Positions 5,073 through 33,394 of a stretch of 41,938 nucleotides of DNA are shown in pieces (the stretch's first letter is position 1; each line of letters starts with the position of its first letter). Under the pieces are notes generated by a model that searched no databases, was not told the DNA's origin, and worked only from the letters and a program-made list of their open reading frames with translations. Location: contig JAKBCS010000032.1 in NCBI GenBank assembly GCA_021807595.1, positions 1 to 41,938 on the forward strand. The letters are read 5' to 3'. Source of the DNA: Planctomycetota bacterium. GTDB lineage: Bacteria; Planctomycetota; Planctomycetia; Gemmatales; Gemmataceae. The position numbers and the translations under genes are program-made.

Positions 5073-5804
5073 TCACCACTCCGGCCCCAATGTTTCGCCG
5101 CCGTTGCGCGTGATGGCGGCGCGAAGGGTTGCTTCGCCGATGTCCTTATGGACATAACGAACGGAGCCGTCGGCGAGCGCGATGCGGAACCCATCGTGGA
5201 AAAGTCGGTCGAGGCGCGGCAGCGGAGCATCGGCATCGTAAGGCAAATCTTCCGGCTTCGTCCACGGCGTCGGCATCCCCGCTTCGACGATCAAGATCGT
5301 ATTTGATGTACCGTCGGGAAAACTATCGCGATATTTAAGTTCCTTTTTGTACTCAAAAGCCGCGCCTTTGCCCATGAATACATGGTAAACGGTGTGATAA
5401 GCCGGAACGAGCGATTGCTTACCCGTCGGCGGCGCATAAGCGGCCGGCATGGATTCGAGCAGTTTTCGATTGTGCGGACTGTCCCAGGCTTCGTCGAGAT
5501 GAAACCGACCGTACAGCTCTCGTTGCTCCATGTACGGTAGAATCAATACGCGCCAACTATGGAGTGGGCGGCCATCTTCGCCGTACACGACGGCGGGAGG
5601 CATTCGGCCATGCTCGGCCTGGTAATTGAGCATGGCCAAAGCCAGCTGTTTCAGGCTTCAGGTGGCGAGATCGGACGCATCGCGTATTCTCACAACGACA
5701 ACATACGTCGTTAGGCCCAAGACCAAGAGTATCGACAGAACCAACGCTGCGTAGAGGGGCCACGACCGTGATTTCGGTCGGCTCGAAAGGGAATTGCGAG
5801 TCAT
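5073..5804 (-). pseudogene. DUF1559-family secreted protein gene interrupted by an in-frame TGA
   Basis: DUF1559 proteins are pilin-like secreted or surface proteins greatly expanded in planctomycetes; their exact role is unsettled. Here an ATG at 5804 opens a frame with a basic start and a membrane helix (PLYAALVLSILLVLGLTTYV). After 48 codons comes TGA (5660-5658), and the same frame then continues with SLKQLALAMLNYQ, the normal DUF1559 follow-on, to a stop at 5073, including PDGTSNTILIVEAG and a C-terminal FRIALADGSVRYVHKDI. So one base change appears to have split the gene without shifting the frame. The downstream part could restart at TTG 5639 or ATG 5633 but would lack its membrane anchor. 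Typical relatives have C-x-N-N-L-K-Q; the stop falls on the first N of that string. A sequencing error or stop read-through would explain it equally well. Confidence 0.75.
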
Positions 5805-5842
5805 TTTTCATTCTCGATTTCAAGGTCGAACGGTTCGTCTTG

Positions 5843-5851
5843 TGTTAGAAT
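5843..5851 (+). promoter_or_regulatory. Possible extended -10 element for the S9 peptidase
   Basis: TGTTAGAAT matches an extended -10 (TGn plus TAGAAT), with no good -35. If real, transcription starts near 5858 and the first possible ATG of the peptidase at 5850 would not be in the message, which supports the start at 5901. Confidence 0.3.
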
Positions 5852-5900
5852 GATACCACGATGGAAGGGGATAAGAATCGTTTTTTTGCGAGACTTCGTG

Positions 5901-8009
5901 ATGGGGCGCTTGCACCCAGCAATGGTTTGTGTCCTGATCCTTTTGCGGATCCCCGCTTCGTCCGGGCTGGCGCAGGGGACGGCGGAAGATTACGAGCGTT
6001 CGGTCAAGCTCCGCGCGCTCGTCCAAAACAAAGTCTACAAAGACCGTGTAACTCCGCATTGGTTGGCCGATAATCGACGCTTCTGGTATCGCAACGATCT
6101 GCCGGGTGGAAAGGTCGAGTTTATCCTGATCGATGCCGAGAAGGGCGAACGTCGAACCATCGTCGAGAAAGACATTGCCGCGCTTGGAAAATCTATCGAA
6201 GCGAAACAACCGGACGTTTCTCCGCGAAGAGATCGACGCGGCGAACGACCGCGCGCCGATTCTCCCGATGGCAAATGGACGGCATTCGTCAAGAATCACA
6301 ACTTGCATCTGCGAGCGAAGGAGGGTGGCAAGGAAGTTGCCTTAAGCAAGGATGGAGACGCGGAAGACGGCTACAACGAGGGCGCGTTCTGGTCGCCGGA
6401 TAGCAAAAAACTCGTGGCCTTACGCACCAAGAAAGGTCAAGAACACAAGGTCCACCTCCTCGAATCGTCGCCCAGCGATCGGATGGAACCGAAGTTGCAC
6501 ACCCTCGATTACTTGAAGCCCGGCGATCGGATCGACGCGACGAAACCCCATCTATTCGATGTGGCCGAGCGGAAGGAAATCGTTGTCGCGGACACGTTGT
6601 TCTCCAACCCGTGGAGCGTGCGAGATGTGCGCTGGTCGCCCGATTCGCGGCGTTTTACATTTCTTTACAATCAGCGCGGCCATCAGGTGTTACGCATTCT
6701 CGGCGTGGACGCCGATAGCGGAACGGTTCGCGCCGTTATCGACGAACAGAATAAGACATTTATCGACTATAATAGTAAGTTTTTCGCGCATTACCTCAAT
6801 GCCACGAACGAAATCGTGTGGATGTCCGAACGCGATGGCTGGAATCATCTCTATCTGTACGATGCGACGACGGGGCGCGTGAAGAATCGGATCACCAAGG
6901 GGCCGTGGGTGGTGCGCGGCATCGACCACCTCGACGACAAGGCGCGGCAGATCTGGTTCCGCGCTGGCGGCATTCATCCGGGCCAAGATCCGTACCACGT
7001 TCACTTTTGCCGCATCAACTTCGACGGCAGCGGCTTGACCCTCCTTACCGAAGGCGACGGGACACACACTATCGCCTATTCGCCGGATCGCCGTTACTTT
7101 CTCGATACCTATACCCGCGTGGACATGGCCCCCGTGACGGAACTGCGCCGCGCCGAAGACGGCAAACGGATCTGCGAACTCGAACGAGCCGACATCAGCG
7201 CTCTATTGAGAACGGCATGGAAAACACCTAAACGCTTCGTCGCCAAGGGACGCGACAAGAAAACCGACATTCACGGCGTCATCTTTCGACCGAGCAATCT
7301 CGACGTTCATAAAAAGTATCCGATTGTCGAACAAATCTATGCCGGGCCCCAAGGCTCGTTCGTGCCTAAGGCGTTCCGCGCATTCCACTATCCCCAAGAG
7401 CTGGCCGAACTCGGTTTCATCGTCGTTCAGATCGACGGCATGGGTACCAACAACCGCTCGAAAGCGTTCCACGACGTCTGTTGGAAAAACCTCGGCGACG
7501 CCGGTTTCCCAGATCGCATTTTGTGGATGAAGGCTGCTGCGGCGGAATATCCGTATCTCGATCTGAAGCGCGTCGGCATTTACGGCGGGTCGGCCGGCGG
7601 ACAAAATGCCCTCCGAGCCGTCTTGGCTCACAGCGATTTCTATAAGGCTGTCTCGGCGAATTGTGGTTGCCACGACAATCGCATGGATAAAATCTGGTGG
7701 AATGAGTTGTGGATGGGTTGGCCCATCGGCCCACACTACGCCGAGCAGTCCAACGTCACCAACGCCCATAAGTTGCGCGGCAAACTCTTGTTGACGGTTG
7801 GCGAGATGGATCGCAATGTCGATCCCGCGTCGACGATGCAGGTAGTCAACGCCCTAATTAAAGCCGGTAAGGATTTTGAACTGCTCGTCGTCCCGGGGGC
7901 GGGGCACGGGACGCCTGGAGGGTATGCCAAGAGGCGCGAGCAAGACTTTTTCGTCCGTCATCTGCTTGGCGTCGAGCCGCCGGATCGCAACGCGTTCAAC
8001 TCGAAGTGA
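5901..8009 (+). CDS. S9 family prolyl oligopeptidase (dipeptidyl peptidase IV-like), exported
   Basis: A 702-residue serine peptidase of family S9. After a signal peptide (residues 1-25, ending near GLAQG) comes a beta-propeller domain with repeated SPDSK/SPDRR-type blades, as in DPP IV N-terminal domains, then an alpha/beta-hydrolase domain. The catalytic triad can be read: Ser564 in GGSAGG, Asp637 in GEMDRNVDP and His669 in GAGHGTPGG. Such enzymes cut peptides after proline or small residues, here probably in the periplasm or outside. The frame extends to an ATG at 5850, but that lies in a possible -10 element, and 5901 gives a cleaner signal peptide; both starts lack a strong ribosome site. 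The next gene, DUF58, starts 168 bases later. Confidence 0.9.
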   Translation: MGRLHPAMVCVLILLRIPASSGLAQGTAEDYERSVKLRALVQNKVYKDRVTPHWLADNRRFWYRNDLPGGKVEFILIDAEKGERRTIVEKDIAALGKSIEAKQPDVSPRRDRRGERPRADSPDGKWTAFVKNHNLHLRAKEGGKEVALSKDGDAEDGYNEGAFWSPDSKKLVALRTKKGQEHKVHLLESSPSDRMEPKLHTLDYLKPGDRIDATKPHLFDVAERKEIVVADTLFSNPWSVRDVRWSPDSRRFTFLYNQRGHQVLRILGVDADSGTVRAVIDEQNKTFIDYNSKFFAHYLNATNEIVWMSERDGWNHLYLYDATTGRVKNRITKGPWVVRGIDHLDDKARQIWFRAGGIHPGQDPYHVHFCRINFDGSGLTLLTEGDGTHTIAYSPDRRYFLDTYTRVDMAPVTELRRAEDGKRICELERADISALLRTAWKTPKRFVAKGRDKKTDIHGVIFRPSNLDVHKKYPIVEQIYAGPQGSFVPKAFRAFHYPQELAELGFIVVQIDGMGTNNRSKAFHDVCWKNLGDAGFPDRILWMKAAAAEYPYLDLKRVGIYGGSAGGQNALRAVLAHSDFYKAVSANCGCHDNRMDKIWWNELWMGWPIGPHYAEQSNVTNAHKLRGKLLLTVGEMDRNVDPASTMQVVNALIKAGKDFELLVVPGAGHGTPGGYAKRREQDFFVRHLLGVEPPDRNAFNSK

Positions 8010-8177: not shown

Positions 8178-9107
8178 ATGCAAGACACGCACCAATATCT
8201 CGATCCCGTCGCGCTGGCCAAGATTCGCAATTTGGAGATGCAGGCTCGGTTGATCGTCGAGGGGTATCTCTCCGGCATGCACAAAAGTCCCTATCACGGC
8301 TTCTCGGTCGAGTTCGCCCAGCACCGCGAGTATGTCCCCGGCGACGATTTGAAGCATCTCGATTGGAAGGTGTACAGTCGAACCGGACGCTTTTACCTGA
8401 AACAGTACGAAGAAGAAACGAATCTTGCCTGTTGGCTGCTCGTCGATGCGAGCGAGTCGATGCAGTATAGCTCCGGGCCGATGGGCGACGACGGCGAACC
8501 CCTCGTCAGCAAATACGATTACGCCTGCATGAGCGCCGCCGCCTTGGCGTATCTCATTCTGCATCAGCAAGACGCCGCCGGACTCGTCACCTACGACAAT
8601 CAAGTGCGGCAACTGCTGAAACCGGCCAGCCAGCCTTCGCACCTCAAGCAGATGATCGCCTGCCTGAGCAAAGGAGCCGGGCGCGAACGCACTCGACTGG
8701 CTCCCATCTTTCACGACCTCGCCGAGCGCGTGACGCGCCGCGGCATCATCGTCATCCTCAGCGATTTTTTCGACGACATGACGGATATTCTTAATGGACT
8801 AAAGCACTTGCGGCACAAGCGACACGAGGTCATCGTCCTACACGTCCTCGATCGTGCCGAGTTGGACTTTCCATTTCAAGAGGCGACTTTGTTTCGCGGC
8901 CTGGAGCAATATCCCGAAATGCTCGCCGATCCGCGCTCGCTCCGGGACGGCTATCTCGAACAGATTCAAGGCTTTATGACGGAGCTGCAACGCGGTTGTT
9001 TGGCGCAGAACATCGACTATGTGACGCTGCGAACCGACATGCAGTTGGGGATTGTCTTATCCAGTTATTTGGCGCATCGCCTGGCCCGGAGCAGTCGTCA
9101 TTCGTAA
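8178..9107 (+). CDS. DUF58 domain protein (vWA-like fold)
   Basis: A 309-residue cytoplasmic-looking protein of the DUF58 family. The family signature region is present (EYVPGDDLKHLDWKVYSRTG, about residues 53-72), followed by a vWA-like MIDAS start, DASESM (about 95-100). DUF58 genes typically lie in operons with MoxR ATPases and BatA-type vWA membrane proteins, where they are thought to act in metal-dependent maturation or envelope stress; the exact role is not settled. Here it is followed 81 bases later by a giant BatA/vWA protein, but no MoxR ATPase gene is next to it in this window. The ATG at 8178 begins at the normal family N-terminus; its ribosome site is weak. Confidence 0.92.
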   Translation: MQDTHQYLDPVALAKIRNLEMQARLIVEGYLSGMHKSPYHGFSVEFAQHREYVPGDDLKHLDWKVYSRTGRFYLKQYEEETNLACWLLVDASESMQYSSGPMGDDGEPLVSKYDYACMSAAALAYLILHQQDAAGLVTYDNQVRQLLKPASQPSHLKQMIACLSKGAGRERTRLAPIFHDLAERVTRRGIIVILSDFFDDMTDILNGLKHLRHKRHEVIVLHVLDRAELDFPFQEATLFRGLEQYPEMLADPRSLRDGYLEQIQGFMTELQRGCLAQNIDYVTLRTDMQLGIVLSSYLAHRLARSSRHS

Positions 9108-9188
9108 CCGATCCGTCTCGAATGGCGGCGAGGGCTATCCATCGCTCTCCGCCAACACTTCGAGGACACCTTGAGGGAGATGTTACTC

Positions 9189-12100
9189 GTGCATTGGCTC
9201 CCCTTCGCATTCGTGGAAGCTCCTCTGACCGTCGCCGCGGTGGCCGGCGGCGCGCTGTCGATTCCCATCATCATCCACCTACTCAATCGACGGCGTTTCA
9301 AGGTCGTCACCTGGGCGGCCATGCGTTTCTTACTGGCGGCTCAGAAGAAAAACTCGCGCCGACTGCGTCTGGAACAGATCCTGTTGCTGGCGGTGCGTTG
9401 CCTGTTGATTCTCTTACTGGTATTGGCGATGGCGAGCATTACGCCGTGGGCCGAGGCGATGTGGCGCTGGTTTGCGCCGGACGGAGCTTCCACCCTTGTC
9501 GCCAATGGGCAACGCACCCATAAGATTCTGGTCGTCGATGGCTCGTTCAGCATGGCGATGAAAGCCGAGGGGGGCACCTGCTTCGATCGCGCCCGAGCTT
9601 TTGCCGGTCAAATCGTCCGGGAATCGAGCGGTGGCGATGCGTTCAGCGTGGTTCTCATGGCTTCGCCGCCGCGCCGCATTGTGCCGGAACCGTCGGAGGA
9701 CTCGCGCAAGGTTCTCGCCGAGATCGACAAGCTGCGGCTGACGCACGGCAACTCCGATTTGGCCGGTACCCTCAACACCGTTGAAAGTCTCGTTCGCGCC
9801 TCGCCGGGGAAGTATCCGGCTCGCGAAGTCTACTTTCTCACCGATTTGCAGCAATCGACATGGATCGCGCGCCAACCCGCCATGCTCTCGGCGACTTTGC
9901 AAAAGATAAAGGAGCGCGCTCAAACCATTTTCATCGACGTAGGCCGACAGGGAGCCGACAATCTGGCGGTAACGAGTCTCGTCCTCGACGATTCGATGGC
10001 CTCCTCCGGACGATTGACCCCCCTGGTCGCCACTGTCACGAATTATGGCGACGTGCGTTCCGATGTGGGCGTTCGACTCTTCGTCGGTAAAGCACGGGCC
10101 GCCGCCAGCGACAAAGCCTTCGATCTTCACGAAGTCGAAGAAAAGATCGTCAAGCAGATCAAGCGCGGCGAGGCAGCACCCGTTACGTTCGCTTATAAGT
10201 TTCCATCGCCCGGCGATTATGTCCTGGTAGTGCAAGTCGCTCACGACGATCTCGAACTCGACGACATGCGTAGCGCCGTGGTCACGGTCAAGAACACAGT
10301 CCCGGTTATGCTAGTGAACGGCAAACCGGCCATTGAGGTGTTCGACCGCGCCACCGAATGGTTGCGGGTGGCGCTGAATCCATTCGACGACAAAGAGACG
10401 CCCGGCTCCATCGCGGCTCGACCGAAGGTACTGTCGTTGTCGCAGTTCGCGGACGAGGGGCTTGGCGATCTGACTCGATACGATTGCGTCTTCTTGTGCG
10501 ATGTGCCGCGTTTCAGCTTGGCTGAGGTGCGGCGCTTGGAAACGCACGTTCGCCGCGGCGGCAGCGTGGTATTCTGTCTCGGTCCGAACGTCGATCTCTC
10601 CGCCTATAACGATTTGCTCTATCGAGACGGGAAGGGGTTACTCCCGGCGCGGCTGACGGAACATGAAAAGGCCAACCTGCGTTTCAACTTCCAGCTGGCG
10701 ATGGACGCGGAGGCAGACCGCGAAGCACCCTTGAAGCCGTTCCGCAGCGAGTCGGCGCGCGAATTCCTGTTGTCGTCTCGCTTCCAGCAGTTCGTGCAGA
10801 CCGAACCCGCGCCGCGCGCCAGCCCGCGCCGCATCTTGACCTTCGCCCCCGCGCCCATTCCCGGTGGATCGAAGTCGGCTTTGGAAGCCGGTCAACCCAC
10901 AATGCCAAGGGGCGGCTCGGCCGTTCTCGATTGGCAACCGCTCGAGACGCGAGAGGTGGAACGTCAACGGTCGGCCCCCGCCGGGGAGCGCGGCGGTAAA
11001 GGACGAATGCGCGGGCGCGTCGTCCTCATCACCACCACGGTCAACGCCGACTGGAACAATTGGCCGAGTTCTCCCAGTTTTCCACCTCTGATGCAAGAGC
11101 TTCTCTTGTATGCCTCCTCCCCTCTCTTGCGCGAACAAGCGTTGCAGGTTGGCGAGCCGATCGAACTCTACCTTCCTAACGTCGCCGGGGGGGGGGAAGC
11201 CGTCGTCGGCCTCCCGGACGGACGCACTGAGTCGGCCCACCTGGAAAACGAAGACGACTCCACCGTGTTACGTTGGATCGACACGGACATCAGTGGTATC
11301 TACAGCATCGTCGTCGGCCAACATCCTCAACAGCACCTCTTCGCCGTCAACGTGCCCGCACTCAATGAGGCTCAGCAACTCAGCGAGAGCGATCCGACCC
11401 GTGCCAGCCGAGAAGATTTACAAAAAACCTATCCCGAATGGGAGATACAAGTTGTTCCCGACCCCACTCAGGTGAAGCACGCGAAGTCGGCGGAGGGTGA
11501 ACCGGAGAACGTCGTGCGACCGCTCGGTGACATCGTGGCCCGTTGGCTCTTACTGACGGTTCTCGCGTTGGTGTTGGCCGAGATCGTGTTGGCCTGGCGA
11601 TTCGGTCACTTTAGCACCGGCGTCGCGCCGCTCGAAGAGCCCGTTCGACCGAGACGACGCACGATAGCCGCCGCGGCGCTGTTGGCTCTGCCTTGGCTGT
11701 TGTTCGGTTGCGTCCTGGCGGTGGGCGCGATTCTCGTTCACGACGCCGTAAGCGGCGATTTTCTCGCCTTCCTGCCCGAGACTGGACGGCGCGCGATGGA
11801 GTCCATCACGGGAATCGAACCGCCCGCTCCCGGAGAAAACAGCCATTGGCGATTGGAATATCGGTCTTATCTGTGGGACAATCGCGCCGACCCTTGGTTG
11901 GCCGGCGCGCTGGCGATCGGCACGGCCCTACTCATCCACGCAGTTTCTCGCCGCGAAGGCAGTTCGCTGCGGCAACAGAAGCGAAACGGAGGACGCTATC
12001 TCCGTCTGGGGCTGCGCATGAGCTTGCTGTTCCTCCTCCTTGCCGTGTTACTGCCGCGCGATCGCATCTGGTTCGAGCGCCAGAGTTGGCCGGACATCGT

Positions 12101-14267
12101 CCTTATGCTCGACGACTCGGCGAGTATGTCCAACGTGGATCAGTACAAGGAAACGCGGATTAAGGAGATCGCCGACCGCCTGGCTCAGCACGAAGGCATC
12201 GCCGACGGACAACGGTTATCGCTGGCTAAGGCGCTGATCGCGCGGGGCGACTCCGATTGGCTGACGGCCATGCTGACGCGCCGCAAGATTCGCGTTCACG
12301 TCTATCACTGCTCTAGCCGCGCCCATCGTCTCAAAGATGCGACCGAGCTGAACGAAGTGCCCTCGGCACTTGAGGCCATTCGGTTGTTGAAGGCCGAGCC
12401 GACCAACGATTCGAGCCAGCTAGGCATGGCGGTGCGCCAGGTTCTCAACGACTTCCGTGGATCTTCGTTGGCCGCCGTCGTCCTACTCACCGACGGCGTG
12501 ACGACCGAAGGCGAGGATCTCGTCAAAGTCTCGAAATATGCCCGTCAATTGGGTGTGCCCTTGTACTTCGTCGGCATCGGCGAAGCCCAGGAAACGCGCG
12601 ATCTGTATCTGCACGACCTAACCGCTCCGGATAGCGCCTATGTCAACGACCGCCTCGTCTTTACCGTCAACGTCACCGCGCGCGGTTTCCCTCGACTTTC
12701 CGTGCCGATCGCCCTGCGCGAAAAAGGCAAGGATCGACCGCTCGATCGCAAGACGATTTCCTTCGACGGCACAAAAAAGACCGTTAAAGTGATTCTCACG
12801 CATCAACCCTCGGAACCCGGCGAAAAGACGTTCGTTCTCGACGTTCCCGGTCAAGAAGAGGAAGTTTCAACGGAGAACAATCGCTTGCAAAGATCGGTCT
12901 TCGTTCACGAGTCGAAGCAGATCAAGGTTCTCTACGTCGAAGGCTATCGCCGTTGGGAGTTCCATTATCTGAAGACTTTGCTGGAACGCGAAAGCAATCG
13001 CATCAAAGGGAACAAGAGCATCGACCTGAAAGTCTTGCTCTTGGACGCCGACGCCGAATTCGCCTCGCAAGATCGCAGCGCCATTTCCGAATTTCCCGCC
13101 AAGACAGAGTTGAATACATTCGATGTCGTTATTCTCGGCGATGTCGATCCGCAAGCGAAGTTCGACGGCAAGATGACCGAACATCTGAAGGATCTCGCCG
13201 ACTTCGCGCGCGAGCGCGGCGGCGGCCTGCTCGCCATCTCCGGCGAACGCTTCATGCCTTCGGCGTATAAAGATTCGCCGCTAAAGGACGTGCTGCCCAT
13301 CGATGTGACGACCGCCGAAGCGCCGCCGGATGTGGATATAGCGGAAACTTTTCGTCCGCAGTTGACGCCGGTGGGCCGAACGCACCAGATCTTCCAGTTC
13401 AGCCCCGGCGACGAGCGCGAGAACGAGACGATCTGGAATCGTCTTCGAGAGATGTACTGGCACGCCGACGGGTATAAACTCAAGCGTGCCGCCGAAGTGT
13501 TGGCCGTCGTACCGAAACGGGACGGGGAGAATAAAAACCCGATGGGAACGGACGGGAAGCCGTTGGTCGTGCAGCAGTTCGCCGGCGCGGGCCGCTGCTT
13601 GTTCTTGGGCTTCTGCGAGACGTGGCGCTGGAATTGGCGCGAGGATCAGGCGTATTACAATCGCTTCTGGATCGAAACGGTGCGCTATCTGGCACGGACG
13701 CGCCTGGGCCGCATCGAATTGCGTCTGGATCGGCAAACTTCGTATCGACGGGGCGAGCCGATCAAGATGACGGTGCGCTTTCCAGACGACGCGCCGCCTC
13801 CTTCCACCGATCTAGGCGTCAAAGTTACCGTCGAGCGCCGTAATCCCGCCAAGCCCGGCGACTCCGAGGTGAGGACCGTGCAGCTGTCCAAAGTCGAGGG
13901 TAGCCGCGCTACTTATGAGGCATTGTTGACGCAGACACCGGAAGGCGATTATAAATTCTGGCTCGACTCGCCGACCGCCACGCCCCGCCCCCAAGTCGAG
14001 TGCAAGGTCGTGCGTCCGCCCGGTGAGATGGAAAATCTTCGGATGAACCAAGCCGACCTGGAGCGCGCCGCCGACGAATCGCACGGTCGATTTTATACCC
14101 TTGCCGACGCCGACCGCCTAATTGACGACTTGCCTACTGGCACGCGCGTAACAGTGAACGCTCCAGGCCCTCCGTACATTCTGTGGAATCACTTCGCGCT
14201 GTTCATCTTGGCGATTGGCCTGTTAACGACGGAATGGCTGATGCGCAAGGAACAGAATCTATTGTGA
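9189..14267 (+). CDS. Giant BatA/vWA membrane protein with two vWA modules (about 1,692 residues)
   Basis: Order of parts: a BatA-type N-terminus with two membrane helices (about 8-32 and 62-84) and the ALSIPIIIHLLNRRR signature; first vWA domain with MIDAS DGSFS at about 117-121; a glutamine-amidotransferase-like stretch around 370-480; a helix near 781-800; further helices near 824-850, 902-920 and 940-956; second vWA domain with MIDAS DDSAS at about 975-979; a beta-rich region; a second amidotransferase-like domain from about 1247 (VLYVEGYRRWEFHYLKTLL); and a C-terminal helix (about 1667-1683). It looks like two complete BatA-type proteins joined near residue 810. GTG 9189 is chosen because AGGGAG ends nine bases before it; ATG 9180 and TTG 9171 are in frame upstream. 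It follows DUF58 by 81 bases and likely shares its operon. A G10 tract lies inside (11187-11196). Confidence 0.88.
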   Translation: MHWLPFAFVEAPLTVAAVAGGALSIPIIIHLLNRRRFKVVTWAAMRFLLAAQKKNSRRLRLEQILLLAVRCLLILLLVLAMASITPWAEAMWRWFAPDGASTLVANGQRTHKILVVDGSFSMAMKAEGGTCFDRARAFAGQIVRESSGGDAFSVVLMASPPRRIVPEPSEDSRKVLAEIDKLRLTHGNSDLAGTLNTVESLVRASPGKYPAREVYFLTDLQQSTWIARQPAMLSATLQKIKERAQTIFIDVGRQGADNLAVTSLVLDDSMASSGRLTPLVATVTNYGDVRSDVGVRLFVGKARAAASDKAFDLHEVEEKIVKQIKRGEAAPVTFAYKFPSPGDYVLVVQVAHDDLELDDMRSAVVTVKNTVPVMLVNGKPAIEVFDRATEWLRVALNPFDDKETPGSIAARPKVLSLSQFADEGLGDLTRYDCVFLCDVPRFSLAEVRRLETHVRRGGSVVFCLGPNVDLSAYNDLLYRDGKGLLPARLTEHEKANLRFNFQLAMDAEADREAPLKPFRSESAREFLLSSRFQQFVQTEPAPRASPRRILTFAPAPIPGGSKSALEAGQPTMPRGGSAVLDWQPLETREVERQRSAPAGERGGKGRMRGRVVLITTTVNADWNNWPSSPSFPPLMQELLLYASSPLLREQALQVGEPIELYLPNVAGGGEAVVGLPDGRTESAHLENEDDSTVLRWIDTDISGIYSIVVGQHPQQHLFAVNVPALNEAQQLSESDPTRASREDLQKTYPEWEIQVVPDPTQVKHAKSAEGEPENVVRPLGDIVARWLLLTVLALVLAEIVLAWRFGHFSTGVAPLEEPVRPRRRTIAAAALLALPWLLFGCVLAVGAILVHDAVSGDFLAFLPETGRRAMESITGIEPPAPGENSHWRLEYRSYLWDNRADPWLAGALAIGTALLIHAVSRREGSSLRQQKRNGGRYLRLGLRMSLLFLLLAVLLPRDRIWFERQSWPDIVLMLDDSASMSNVDQYKETRIKEIADRLAQHEGIADGQRLSLAKALIARGDSDWLTAMLTRRKIRVHVYHCSSRAHRLKDATELNEVPSALEAIRLLKAEPTNDSSQLGMAVRQVLNDFRGSSLAAVVLLTDGVTTEGEDLVKVSKYARQLGVPLYFVGIGEAQETRDLYLHDLTAPDSAYVNDRLVFTVNVTARGFPRLSVPIALREKGKDRPLDRKTISFDGTKKTVKVILTHQPSEPGEKTFVLDVPGQEEEVSTENNRLQRSVFVHESKQIKVLYVEGYRRWEFHYLKTLLERESNRIKGNKSIDLKVLLLDADAEFASQDRSAISEFPAKTELNTFDVVILGDVDPQAKFDGKMTEHLKDLADFARERGGGLLAISGERFMPSAYKDSPLKDVLPIDVTTAEAPPDVDIAETFRPQLTPVGRTHQIFQFSPGDERENETIWNRLREMYWHADGYKLKRAAEVLAVVPKRDGENKNPMGTDGKPLVVQQFAGAGRCLFLGFCETWRWNWREDQAYYNRFWIETVRYLARTRLGRIELRLDRQTSYRRGEPIKMTVRFPDDAPPPSTDLGVKVTVERRNPAKPGDSEVRTVQLSKVEGSRATYEALLTQTPEGDYKFWLDSPTATPRPQVECKVVRPPGEMENLRMNQADLERAADESHGRFYTLADADRLIDDLPTGTRVTVNAPGPPYILWNHFALFILAIGLLTTEWLMRKEQNLL
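11187..11196. repeat. G10 homopolymer inside the double-vWA gene
   Basis: Ten consecutive G encode the GGG of NVAGGGEAV at about residue 668. Gain or loss of one base would shift the frame and end the protein after the first vWA module. It could be a slippage site or a place where the reads are unreliable; the frame as given is open. Confidence 0.6.
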
Positions 14268-29545: not shown

Positions 29546-32500
29546 TCATTTACCCTTCGACATTTGCCGTGTGAATTCGCGGAAGGCGTCGCGGTAGCCG
29601 GGGGGCGGCTGCCCTCGGTCGGGTCCGTGGGCGTCGCCGGGACCGGAGCCGGAAGGTTCAATCGTTCGACCGCCCATGCTCGGCAGCGGCTTCGCCTGTT
29701 GGGGATCGACCGGGGCCTCCGGACGGGACGTTGCGCGCGGCACGACTTGCTTGCGCTTCGATTCGAGATATTTCTTCCACGCTTCCTCCGACACGCCGGC
29801 CTCTTTCAAAATGTCCTTATCGACGCGCTTGGCGAAGTCTTCGAGTTGCATCTGCGCGGCGCGATGACTGCCCGGCTTCTCGGGCTTGCTCGGCGTCGAC
29901 GCGCCTCCACGCCCGCCCTCGTCGGCTTTGCCGCTGTTGCGGTCGCCCCCGCCACCGTTCGCCGAGCCGCTGCCTTGCGTGTTCTGCCCATTCCGTTTGT
30001 CGCCTTTTTTTGATCCCGATTGTCCTTTTTTTTCTCCGTTCTTAGTGCCGGACGATTCATCTCCCTGGTTCGCTTCGTTCTTATCGCTGGAACCAGAGCT
30101 TCGCTGCTTTTTGTCGAGCGCTTCGCCGGCTTTTTCGCGGGCATCGGGATCGAACGCTTCTTTCTCGATCCGTTCTAGCTGGCGTTCGGCTTCTTCGCGG
30201 GCTGCGTCGTTCTTGTTCTCTAGTTCCCGCTGGAGGTCGCGCACGTCCTTGGCGCTGGCGTTGCGCGCCCGTGCGCCTCCGTCCGGCTTGCTCTGGGCTT
30301 GCGCCGATTGGTCTTTCTCTCCTTCGCCGGCAGACGGTTTGGCATCGCCTTTGGCGGACGAATCCTCTCTCGGCGACGATGGGTCCGGTTTCCGCTCGGC
30401 ATTCGCTCCGGACTTCGATTCGCCCTCGGTCTTGGCCTCGCCTCGGCTGGGATTGTTGTTGTCCTTGGCTTCGCCGGTCTGCTGCTGCGTTTGCTCCCCT
30501 TTCTCGCCGACAGGTTTGTTGTCGCTCGATTCTTTCCCTTGGCCCTGGGGTTGCGGTTTGCCTTCGCCGCCTTCTTTCTTGGTATCGGGATTGCCGCTGG
30601 GCTTATTCTCACCGGATGAAGGTGCGGCCTCGGGCTGGCCTTTGGGCTCACCCGACTTGCCTTCGCCGGATTGATTCTTCGGATCGCCGCCTTGCTTACC
30701 TTCGCCCTTGTCGCCGTCCGGAGGGGTGGACGCATTCTCACCCTTACCGTCGCCCTTCGAGGCATCGTTACCCGCTTGCGATTGCCCCTTCTCCTTGTTC
30801 TCGCTGGAAGTCTTGGACTCTTGCCCCTCCGCTCCCTTGTTCTCGCTCTGGGGTTTCGCGCCGGACGCTTCGCCGCCATCGGGCTGGTTTCGATCGCCCT
30901 TGCCCTCGCCCTGTTCGCACGTTTCCGGCTTGCCCTCGCCCTGTTTTTCTTCTTTTTTCTCCAGGGCGTTCTTTATCTGCTCTTCGGTCTTTTGGTCCTC
31001 GTTGGGCAGATCGTTCTTCTCGCCTTGGTCGTTCTTATTGTCTGCTTGTCCGCCGTTGTCGTTCTTGTTCGCGCCTTCGTTTTTCTCGCCTTGCCCGCCG
31101 TTGTCGTTCTTGTTTTCGGCGTCGTTCTTCCGTTCGCCGTCTTTCGCTTGTCCTGGCTCTCCCGTCCCCTTCTCGTTTTCCTTACTTTTGTTCTCTTCTT
31201 CTTGGTTGCGCGCTTGCTGTTCTCGTTTCTGTTGTTGGCGTTGCGCCTCTTCTTTTTGGCGTTGCTGATCCTGCTGTTGTTCGTGTTTTTTCTTTTCGAT
31301 CTCGGCTTGTTGCTTGTCTCGCTTCTGCTTGTCTTGGTTCTTCTCCGGCTCGGTCAGCAAGACGCGGAAGTGCTTGCTCTCGGTCACTCCGGCCTGGGGA
31401 TAATCGCAGGCATCGCTCGCTTCCAGCCAGTATTCCAATTCCATACCGGCTCGGAGCGCAACCGCGCGGCCATCTTCACCGCGAACGCCGGACAGTTCGA
31501 CAAAGTCCTTGTATTCGACTTCGCGCGGATAGCCGCCGTCGGCCAAGCGCATCTGCTCGTCGGAGCGATACGGCTTGTCCTGCAATTTATCGCCGCCGAT
31601 CACTCGCATCCGCAGCCGCACGCTCTTGACGCCGATGTCGTCGCTAGACTTGCCCCCTACCGACAACAGCCCATCGGCGGGCAAGCGAATGTCCTTCCCC
31701 GGTTCGGTCAACTCCACGACGGGCGGGGCGTCGGGAATCGCCGTCACGGGCGAGGCATCCGCGTCGGCATACGACTCATCCTCCGTCGAGAGGAAGAATA
31801 AACGATATTTACCATCTTCATTAAGCACCTGGCGGACGAGGAAGCAGCGCGGCTCGGTGGGATCGAGCGTGCCGAGTACGACGGATTTACCGTTTTTACC
31901 CTCAAACTCCAACCAGCCCTTGGAAAGGGTACGATTGGTACGAACGCGCAAGAGGACTTCGGTGCCGCGCAATTCCTTCAAGTCGCGCTCGCGGCGAAGT
32001 TCGTCGGCGCGGACGACGTAAGGCCGAAAATGATAGGTTGCCAGGAAGTCGGTGATGGCCGGCGCGGCGCGGACGGAAACGCGGTACTCCGGCGTGGTGG
32101 CATCGCCGCCGGCCACCCGATACCAAAATCCATTCTTGACCTCGGCGGCAGACAGAGAAGTCGTCCATTCGCGGCTCGGTTCCTGAAGCAGCGGTCGTTC
32201 CAGCCAGGGATCGCCATCTTCATGGCGATAGAGCAACCGAACCGCGTCCGCCGCTTTCGGATCGGGAACTCGACCGCCGACCTCGACGACAAAGGGAATA
32301 CTTTGTCCGACGGTGACGACGGCATCACCGCCCACTGGCTTCAGGATGTCCAGCTGGGTGCGGGTCGAGATCCCGGTCGCCGAGGAAAATGGATTGAACG
32401 TCCGCTTCAACAGCGAGAAGAAGGGCGCGGGGCCGAGCAACAGAAACGAAATCACAAAGGCGACGGCGAAGGCAGCGGCCAAGCCGCCCATCCAACCGGC

Positions 32501-32965
32501 TCGGCGTCCGCCGATCGCTCGTTCGAGATCGACTTGCACCACATCCTTCGCCGCCCGTTGACCCAGTGCCCCGCGGATGGCCGGGGGCAACGGCTGCGCG
32601 TGCAGATCGACCCAATTGACGATGCTGTTTTTGGCGTTGGGCAGCAGTTGTTCGACCCGCCGAGCCGCGTAGTAGGGATTGACGCGCAACCGCAGCGGGC
32701 GGAGGACGGCCCAAACGAGATACGCGCCGCCGCCGATGCAGAAGAGGACCAGCGACAGCTGCCGCGTTCGTGCCGCGAGCATCCAGTTGGCATCGCAGAC
32801 GACCATGAGAACGATGTAGGCTAAGCTCAACGACGTGAAACCGAGCAACCCCGCCGACAGATCGAGCAGACGAATGCGCTTCTCGGCCTCCTCCAGGTGA
32901 GAGGCAACGACGGAATCGTACTTGTTTGTCGCCGGAGACTTCACGCGGCCCAAATCCGTCGCCAT
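29546..32965 (-). CDS. DUF4175-like membrane protein with very long charged low-complexity region
   Basis: About 1,139 residues. Two hydrophobic helices lie near 35-57 and 68-90 and a third near 158-182 (AAAFAVAFVISFLLLG), then a beta-rich extracytoplasmic part (about 190-525). From about 535 to 1000 the sequence is almost only K, E, Q, N, G, D, S and P, with repeats such as NKNDNGGQ and GEKND, and heptad-like Q/R runs at the start. The C-terminus has a folded-looking segment (LEDFAKRVDKDILKEAGVSEEAWKKYLESKRK) and ends in YRDAFREFTRQMSKGK. The pattern fits DUF4175-like proteins seen near MoxR/BatA genes in planctomycetes and other bacteria; function is unknown. ATG 32965 has GGGGGAG seven bases upstream; the frame opens at 32998. 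The NtrC-type gene follows. Confidence 0.8.
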   Translation of the reverse strand: MATDLGRVKSPATNKYDSVVASHLEEAEKRIRLLDLSAGLLGFTSLSLAYIVLMVVCDANWMLAARTRQLSLVLFCIGGGAYLVWAVLRPLRLRVNPYYAARRVEQLLPNAKNSIVNWVDLHAQPLPPAIRGALGQRAAKDVVQVDLERAIGGRRAGWMGGLAAAFAVAFVISFLLLGPAPFFSLLKRTFNPFSSATGISTRTQLDILKPVGGDAVVTVGQSIPFVVEVGGRVPDPKAADAVRLLYRHEDGDPWLERPLLQEPSREWTTSLSAAEVKNGFWYRVAGGDATTPEYRVSVRAAPAITDFLATYHFRPYVVRADELRRERDLKELRGTEVLLRVRTNRTLSKGWLEFEGKNGKSVVLGTLDPTEPRCFLVRQVLNEDGKYRLFFLSTEDESYADADASPVTAIPDAPPVVELTEPGKDIRLPADGLLSVGGKSSDDIGVKSVRLRMRVIGGDKLQDKPYRSDEQMRLADGGYPREVEYKDFVELSGVRGEDGRAVALRAGMELEYWLEASDACDYPQAGVTESKHFRVLLTEPEKNQDKQKRDKQQAEIEKKKHEQQQDQQRQKEEAQRQQQKREQQARNQEEENKSKENEKGTGEPGQAKDGERKNDAENKNDNGGQGEKNEGANKNDNGGQADNKNDQGEKNDLPNEDQKTEEQIKNALEKKEEKQGEGKPETCEQGEGKGDRNQPDGGEASGAKPQSENKGAEGQESKTSSENKEKGQSQAGNDASKGDGKGENASTPPDGDKGEGKQGGDPKNQSGEGKSGEPKGQPEAAPSSGENKPSGNPDTKKEGGEGKPQPQGQGKESSDNKPVGEKGEQTQQQTGEAKDNNNPSRGEAKTEGESKSGANAERKPDPSSPREDSSAKGDAKPSAGEGEKDQSAQAQSKPDGGARARNASAKDVRDLQRELENKNDAAREEAERQLERIEKEAFDPDAREKAGEALDKKQRSSGSSDKNEANQGDESSGTKNGEKKGQSGSKKGDKRNGQNTQGSGSANGGGGDRNSGKADEGGRGGASTPSKPEKPGSHRAAQMQLEDFAKRVDKDILKEAGVSEEAWKKYLESKRKQVVPRATSRPEAPVDPQQAKPLPSMGGRTIEPSGSGPGDAHGPDRGQPPPGYRDAFREFTRQMSKGK

Positions 32966-33394
32966 CGCCGTACTCCCCCAGATGTGCAATTCGCGCAACT
33001 CGTCTTCTTATTATAACGGCGCGGGGTGGAATAGCTCAACGAATTTGTTCTTGTCTCCGATTCCGACCGCTGGTTTCAGGGAAGCACCTCCAGCGCAGAG
33101 AGGAAACTCGGGGAGGATTCTCGGACAAGCGAGGCAATTTGGATAACCTTTGGTAAAATCACCTGAAATACCAATGATAACCGGCGTGAGGCAGGAAAGA
33201 GACGTTCGATGGGCAAGTGAGGTTCAAATCGACTTGCCCGGCATACCGATAAGATGGAAGAGCGGGATCATTGCGTCCCGTCGCAGCGCGTTTGCGAACG
33301 AACGCCGCAAGGATTGTCGGTCGTTTCTTCGTTGCGGTCTTACCACCGCCGGACGCGCTTCCATACCGAGACTTACAACTTGAGGTACGGGATC
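32966..33394. other. 429-base divergent intergenic region
   Basis: Lies between the DUF4175-like gene (minus) and the Wza-like gene (plus), so it should hold both promoters. TAAAAT near 33150 could be a -10 element but lacks a partner at the right distance. I see no gene, RNA or strong hairpin. The open frames here are short and lack family features or ribosome sites. Confidence 0.5.

Follow-up and report, generated by a model that had tools for sequence, protein, structure and literature searches.

Genes for BatA-type vWA proteins were described in an earlier note on this locus as usually forming pairs of separate genes with DUF58 and a MoxR ATPase, whereas the window, i.e., the whole 41,938-nt stretch of DNA analysed here and the entire contig C251 of its source assembly, appeared to carry two such modules fused in one protein beside DUF58. 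MoxR-vWA systems are widespread and poorly understood. The locus raises the questions of whether this fusion is genuine and recent, what it takes to join two membrane modules in one chain and what has become of the MoxR gene.

The reading frame and its domains

Read directly from the window, the fused gene (Table 1) is one stop-free frame with a GTG start; an ATG at 9180 and a TTG at 9171 are alternative in-frame starts. The same frame runs unbroken in two further assemblies, L039 and L040; this bears out the earlier note's view of a single uninterrupted frame, and no frameshift parts the halves at this locus. The closest named records to the protein are from Planctomycetota MAGs, with 95 and about 77-78% identity. 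A gap of 81 bp (9107-9189) separates the gene from that of the DUF58 protein, which has a weak vWA match of its own (VWA_2, E 1.4e-5) and a DASES motif, and a phosphoribosyltransferase-like gene lies 3' of the fused gene on the opposite strand. The S9 peptidase gene takes the place that MoxR has in operon-keeping relatives, and the same neighbour is seen in L039; it is not part of the MoxR-vWA system. In L039 (from G003, the 95%-identical relative), DUF58 and the fused gene are held apart by some 1.9 kb of inserted DNA containing two DUF4058 ORFs (5080-6734). Elsewhere in the window, a putative 1,150-aa ORF on the minus strand (29546-32998) had no Pfam match at E 0.001.

Table 1. Positions in the window of the fused gene, its neighbours and the features of its product (residue numbers refer to the fused protein).
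Feature	Positions	Strand	Evidence
S9 peptidase, 5' of DUF58	5850-8009	+	Pfam
DUF58 protein, 309 aa	8178-9107	+	PF01882 E 1.9e-43; operon-type DUF58 clade in tree
Membrane protein of 1,692 aa with two fused vWA modules	9189-14267	+	Frame reading, relatives
BatA N-terminal double-TM domain, residues 19-82	9243-9434	+	PF07584 E 9e-13, TIGR02226 E 1.3e-15, hydropathy
TM1, residues 14-32, and TM2, residues 64-82	overlapping 9243-9434	+	Hydropathy
vWA domain 1, residues 113-219	9525-9845	+	VWA_2 E 4e-20; MIDAS DGSFS 117-121
First amidotransferase-like stretch, about residues 361-490, without conserved Cys	10269-10658	+	Alignment, HHalign
TM3, residues 782-800, the final helix in module 1	11532-11588	+	Hydropathy
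Insert of about 57 residues (804-860, approximate borders) carrying TM4; proposed topology adapter	11598-11768	+	Hydropathy of fused rows
TM4, residues 832-850	11682-11738	+	Peak in 58/58 fused rows
TM5 (902-920) and TM6 (937-955), the helix pair that opens module 2	11892-12053	+	Hydropathy, HHalign to TM1/TM2
vWA domain 2, residues 969-1139	12093-12605	+	VWA E 7e-17; MIDAS DDSAS 975-979
Second amidotransferase-like stretch, about residues 1240-1400	12906-13388	+	HHalign to first; subthreshold DUF7408 match (E 0.0045)
TM7, residues 1663-1681; C-tail predicted cytosolic	14175-14231	+	Hydropathy; C-tail net positive 55/57

The vWA domain of each half carries a DxSxS MIDAS motif, as had been claimed from the sequence of the window. 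Among 58 aligned fused proteins (three fused rows under 1,600 aa, from G002, G012 and G068, were left out), the first motif is conserved at D117 (58/58), S119 (57/58) and S121 (54/58), and the second at D975 (58/58), S977 (55/58) and S979 (58/58). A Kyte-Doolittle (KD) scan with a 19-residue window and a threshold over 1.4 gave exactly seven hydropathy peaks where about seven membrane helices had been expected, and four of them make up the cluster at residues 781-956 in which two proteins had been proposed to join. Bit scores for the BatA domain exceeded the curated cutoffs in the first half (PF07584, 48.9 against 25.9; TIGR02226 two_anch, residues 21-83, 57.4 against 23.05), which was the sole matching stretch; neither model matched the second half. 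When profiles of the halves were compared, they aligned along 630 columns (HHalign E 2.5e-15), with TM1/TM2 paired with TM5/TM6 and vWA with vWA. On this profile comparison, the second half is a diverged homologue of the first in which the module plan is repeated, HHalign being the only method that detected the homology. The earlier description as two BatA/vWA modules is therefore right as to the vWA domains but fits the BatA model in the first half only.

The two amidotransferase-like stretches that were also proposed fared less well. Although the regions that hold them match one another (HHalign E 9e-8), Pfam gave no amidotransferase support even at E 5, the best match being that to DUF7408, and there is no conserved Cys at the candidate nucleophile elbow, where C occurs in 5/58 rows at best in either half. 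Assignment as a class I glutamine amidotransferase was dropped, as neither a nucleophile Cys nor a Pfam match was found. A sequence search of the PDB with the fused protein (phmmer) matched no solved chain, and modelling the structure of each half on alignments of 4 and 3 rows gave pLDDT values too low for use (37.5 and 39.1).

Distribution of the fusion and of its operon partners

In family f1 of the genome sample, which we take to be the Gemmataceae, 80 of 95 genomes had a match at E <= 1e-70; in a phylum sample, 64 of 392 genomes did. In the sister family f2, the matches in seven genomes were all weak (best E 3.7e-54, about 30% identity). The DNA around 103 loci was fetched and the frames were read directly, covering 69 f1 loci (67 genomes, with 12 of the 80 matching f1 genomes left out) and 34 others, namely 33 from other families plus a paralogous operon that the window genome itself carries on C273. 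Both halves lie in one frame at 60 of the 69 f1 loci, a count that includes G002 and G068, which are cut by contig ends, and G026, which changes frame near the end of the C-half. Four f1 loci are broken, by an in-frame TAG (G029, G110) or by frame switches (G080, G113), and five are fragments at contig ends. Fission at the joint was considered for G080, where the match shifts frame inside TM4; the first frame stays open for about 65 codons more, and the locus was read as carrying one indel. The fused loci come from many assemblies, single-contig genomes among them, and their products range in identity to the window protein from 95 through about 77-78 and 59 down to about 40%.

None of the 34 other loci is fused: 25 carry tandem genes, seven, all in family f4, show the C-half alone within the fetched DNA and two are cut. 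The five phylum-sample genomes outside f1 with apparent frames over 1,500 (G288, G260, G242, G381 and G398) proved to have tandem genes on the DNA, and apparent fusions elsewhere outside f1, the paralogous operon included, likewise had stops between the genes. A further 12 paralogue-type loci were likewise unfused. One in-frame stop is all that parts the halves in 8 of the 25 tandem loci and all that lies between the genes in 7 of the 12 paralogue-type loci. The paralogous operon of the window genome (G000:C273:17389-24106, L102) has the order MoxR-DUF58-vWA-vWA, with the vWA genes one in-frame TGA apart and no propeller gene. At the f4 loci (L096, L100, L162, L165, L166, L167 and L169), a lone C-half orthologue was seen, and the N-half, DUF58 and MoxR were not found in the fetched upstream DNA.

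In the N-half tree (89 rows), all f1 rows form one clade (SH-aLRT 100), as do the 62 f1 rows in the C-half tree (95 rows, support 100); the four broken f1 loci and the contig-cut G002 were left out of both trees, and each tree holds a single change between fused and split when contig-cut rows are ignored. The fusion is old and f1-wide, with a single origin in both half trees. The earlier note was thus correct in calling the fusion natural, given that the two vWA units are separate neighbouring genes elsewhere, but its suggestion of a new fusion fails, since close relatives share the same long protein, an outcome that the note had itself named as a refutation. The 1:1 ratio of vWA units that it inferred follows trivially from the fusion.

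Relatives show the operon order beta-propeller, MoxR, DUF58, BatA/vWA, vWA. Where enough DNA was at hand, all 24 of 24 tandem loci, the window genome's own paralogue included, had both MoxR and DUF58 upstream, versus 20 of 56 f1 loci other than the window; DUF58 alone was found in four, as in the window, and neither gene in 32. A gene was counted as upstream if it lay on the same strand at any point of the DNA fetched there (6-7 kb in most cases). Left out of the count were two fragments from G036, along with 13 loci (11 f1, 2 other) whose upstream DNA was shorter than 3.5 kb; the four broken loci and a single fragment are counted among its f1 rows. None of the 13 MoxR matches of the window genome lies on the window contig, in keeping with the earlier note, which found no MoxR gene adjacent and advised a search beyond the locus. 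The orthologue is on contig C102 of the same genome (659-1732) and is 94% identical to the MoxR of the intact operon in G001; the propeller and MoxR are on C102, and DUF58 and the fusion on C251. As the S9-DUF58 neighbourhood recurs in G003, a misassembly is an unlikely cause of this split.

A long gene for a PQQ/BamB-type beta-propeller lies 5' of MoxR in 15 of 16 f1 loci and in 15 of 16 other loci of the same class with at least 2 kb of room. It was found in none of five loci outside the class and in none of 42 loci without MoxR (4.5 kb upstream), and it is missing in G007, G466 and the C273 paralogue. A PQQ/BamB-like propeller is a likely partner of the MoxR-vWA system, staying with MoxR in the tested loci. 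Propeller genes were located at G000:C102:1948-6000 (L222) and at 16-4035 of L040.

MoxR and DUF58 are inherited together with the fusion. Of the 89 rows in the DUF58 tree, those of operon type from f1, linked or unlinked, make up one clade of 43 (SH-aLRT 99), and in the MoxR tree (86 rows) the operon-type clade has 36 rows (support 92), among them 15 of the 16 that come from genomes with no linkage or partial linkage. The exception is G003 (93% complete), in which the fusion is present and an operon-type MoxR was not found. The trees also cover five f1 genomes (G004, G017, G024, G027 and G100) out of the 15 in which no match was found; none of their 13 DUF58 and none of their 16 MoxR rows falls in the operon-type clades. 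These five genomes without the fusion thus also lack its MoxR and DUF58 types, although the five, which span four genera, may represent fewer than five losses.

The joint and the predicted topology

Four hydropathy peaks are found at the joint in 57 of the 58 fused rows, and TM4 is found in all 58, with a peak strength of KD 1.76-2.94. By comparison, unfused C-halves, with start codons picked by rule, have two peaks only before the vWA core in 30 of 33 rows, the exceptions being G381 and G197 with a third peak and G398 with one peak in a short stretch. Unfused N-halves stop a few residues past their last helix, and this tail is net positive in 22 of 24; in unfused C-halves, the N-tail is net positive in 2 of 30 and the loop after the first helix in 29 of 30. 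In the fused proteins, the loop is net positive in 46 of 57 rows between TM3 and TM4, in 15 of 57 between TM4 and TM5 and in all 57 between TM5 and TM6, and the C-tail in 55 of 57. The charge counts omit G398, G381 and G197 (C-half), G242 (N-half) and the fused row of G034, which does not have four peaks. Judged from these charges, an unfused N-half should end inside and an unfused C-half should begin outside, so that, with a direct join, the chain would cross the membrane three times from one vWA domain to the other and the second would face inward. TM4 brings the number of crossings to four and is thus predicted to keep both vWA domains outside. For the window protein, charge and hydropathy agree on a predicted N-out/C-in module, in which the vWA domain would be periplasmic. 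TM4 is apparently an extra helix gained at the joint, which would give a 3+1+3 plan with TM4 as topology adapter. The earlier note overlooked this helix; the charge argument and the presence of the extra helix at the joint in all fused proteins are new here.

Taken together, we consider it probable that an old, f1-wide fusion joined the last two genes of the operon and gained TM4, leaving both vWA domains in the periplasm. Each half would be a module of two helices, a periplasmic metal-binding MIDAS vWA domain, further domains and one C-terminal helix, with its N-terminus outside and its C-terminus inside, and joining two such modules head to tail would require one more membrane crossing, which f1 would have gained as TM4. 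Cytosolic MoxR (an AAA+ protein) and DUF58 may drive or load the membrane protein through its loops and tail on the cytosolic side, while the paired periplasmic vWA domains may bind metal and engage an envelope client, at which the beta-propeller, presumably also periplasmic, probably joins. A broader statement seems to us only slightly better than an even bet: that two diverged N-out/C-in modules of a MoxR/BatA envelope system could be fused only with a new parity-restoring helix, that this barrier explains why many tandem pairs one stop apart stayed separate, and that the operon was then free to break up with its parts co-inherited. The tandem pairs one stop apart that remain unfused fit such a barrier, short of proof, and, as all fused sequences stem from one event, the fusion and its adapter helix count as a single data point.

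Other explanations can be set against these observations. An asymmetric topology, in which TM4 is no true crossing or is a re-entrant hairpin, would leave the first vWA domain periplasmic and the second cytosolic, possibly as a direct partner of MoxR. It draws on the vWA finger of NorD, which enters the pore of the NorQ hexamer and hence is on the side of MoxR (PMC13036017), and on the modest charge difference across TM4, the TM4-TM5 loop being weakly negative and the TM3-TM4 loop not positive in 11 of 57 fused rows. However, the consistently positive TM5-TM6 loop, its counterpart in unfused C-halves and the positive C-tail place the second vWA domain outside, and the TM4 peak is strong in every fused row, making this topology unlikely. 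Neutral read-through, whereby one stop was lost and TM4 came later or is incidental, without any topological need, would suit tandem genes that are so often a single in-frame stop apart. Still, three crossings would invert the second vWA domain, TM4 is present in all fused rows, and none of the 34 loci outside the f1 orthologues or the 12 paralogue-type loci is fused even though in many a single mutation would suffice; helix parity speaks against simple stop loss as a full explanation, and we regard this route as improbable.

The lower linkage of MoxR and DUF58 to fused than to tandem loci could also indicate that fusion freed the vWA pair from these partners. Against this, all 12 wholly unlinked genomes that were searched have an operon-type MoxR and 11 of them an operon-type DUF58 (G065 is represented in the tree by a paralogue). 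In eight of the 12 (G088, G034, G065, G010, G064, G066, G080 and G076), no more than 1.5 kb separates the best MoxR from an operon-like DUF58, and in G013, G022, G026 and G035 the two are on separate contigs. With both partner types also missing from the five examined genomes without the fusion, such a release is very unlikely; as a single clade is involved, cause is not separable from ancestry. A fusion confined to a recent lineage, or an assembly artefact that merged two genes, might be suspected from the tandem genes of other families and the lone stops between them, but the single frame recurs in most f1 loci, in many assemblies and in single-contig genomes, and is intact at 95% and 78% identity; the direct reading of f1 frames refutes both ideas, to which we give practically no credence.

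If the old fusion with a gained helix is accepted, the covalent link suggests that the two vWA modules work side by side and offers them as a single chain for purification. It also makes a strict topological prediction, with both vWA domains outside and TM4 obligatory, and the fused family could serve as a test case for the limits that topology sets on gene fusion.

Comparison with known systems

In other planctomycete families (e.g., G044, G057 and G055), the tandem MoxR-DUF58-BatA/vWA-vWA operon has the same products, order and module plan, with the propeller upstream in most of the class, and differs in its two separate vWA genes and the lack of a TM4 insert. RL3499-RL3502 of Rhizobium is another MoxR/DUF58/two-membrane-protein operon. 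The Bat (Bacteroides aerotolerance) proteins of Bacteroides, Leptospira and Borrelia likewise combine a BatA domain and vWA with MoxR and DUF58 genes in the cluster (PMC5700661), but have one vWA domain each. The BatA-like BB0173 of Borrelia, a single-vWA spirochaete protein of 341 residues, has been mapped as N-lumenal/C-cytosolic with three TM helices and a translocated vWA domain (PMC5700661). Other bat gene fusions are on record, namely batB-batC and bb0170 (PMC3557215, PMC5700661); a vWA-vWA fusion is absent from the Bat passages of these two papers and from the titles and abstract starts of the literature searched in one library. The function of the Bat proteins is left open in the Bat literature (PMC3557215).

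NorQ/NorD and RavA/ViaA also pair a MoxR AAA+ ATPase with a vWA partner, and for NorQ/NorD a mechanism has been described in which a finger in the hexamer pore acts with twisting (PMC13036017). The NorD and ViaA partners are built differently from the fused protein, which, as noted above, resembles no solved chain in sequence.

For the helix plan, the DUF606 fusions (PMC3962082) were set aside as a precedent, the SWEET plan being closer. SWEET proteins, compared to SemiSWEETs, have a 3+1+3 arrangement in which two parallel three-helix modules are connected by the linker helix TM4 (PMC7162841). The likeness is one of helix plan, with no homology seen, MtN3/SWEET not being among the five Pfam families found in the fused protein at E 0.1, and the SWEET helices form a transport fold whereas those described here would anchor large periplasmic domains. 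Unlike in the SWEET comparison, the fused vWA protein joins two genes that had already diverged.
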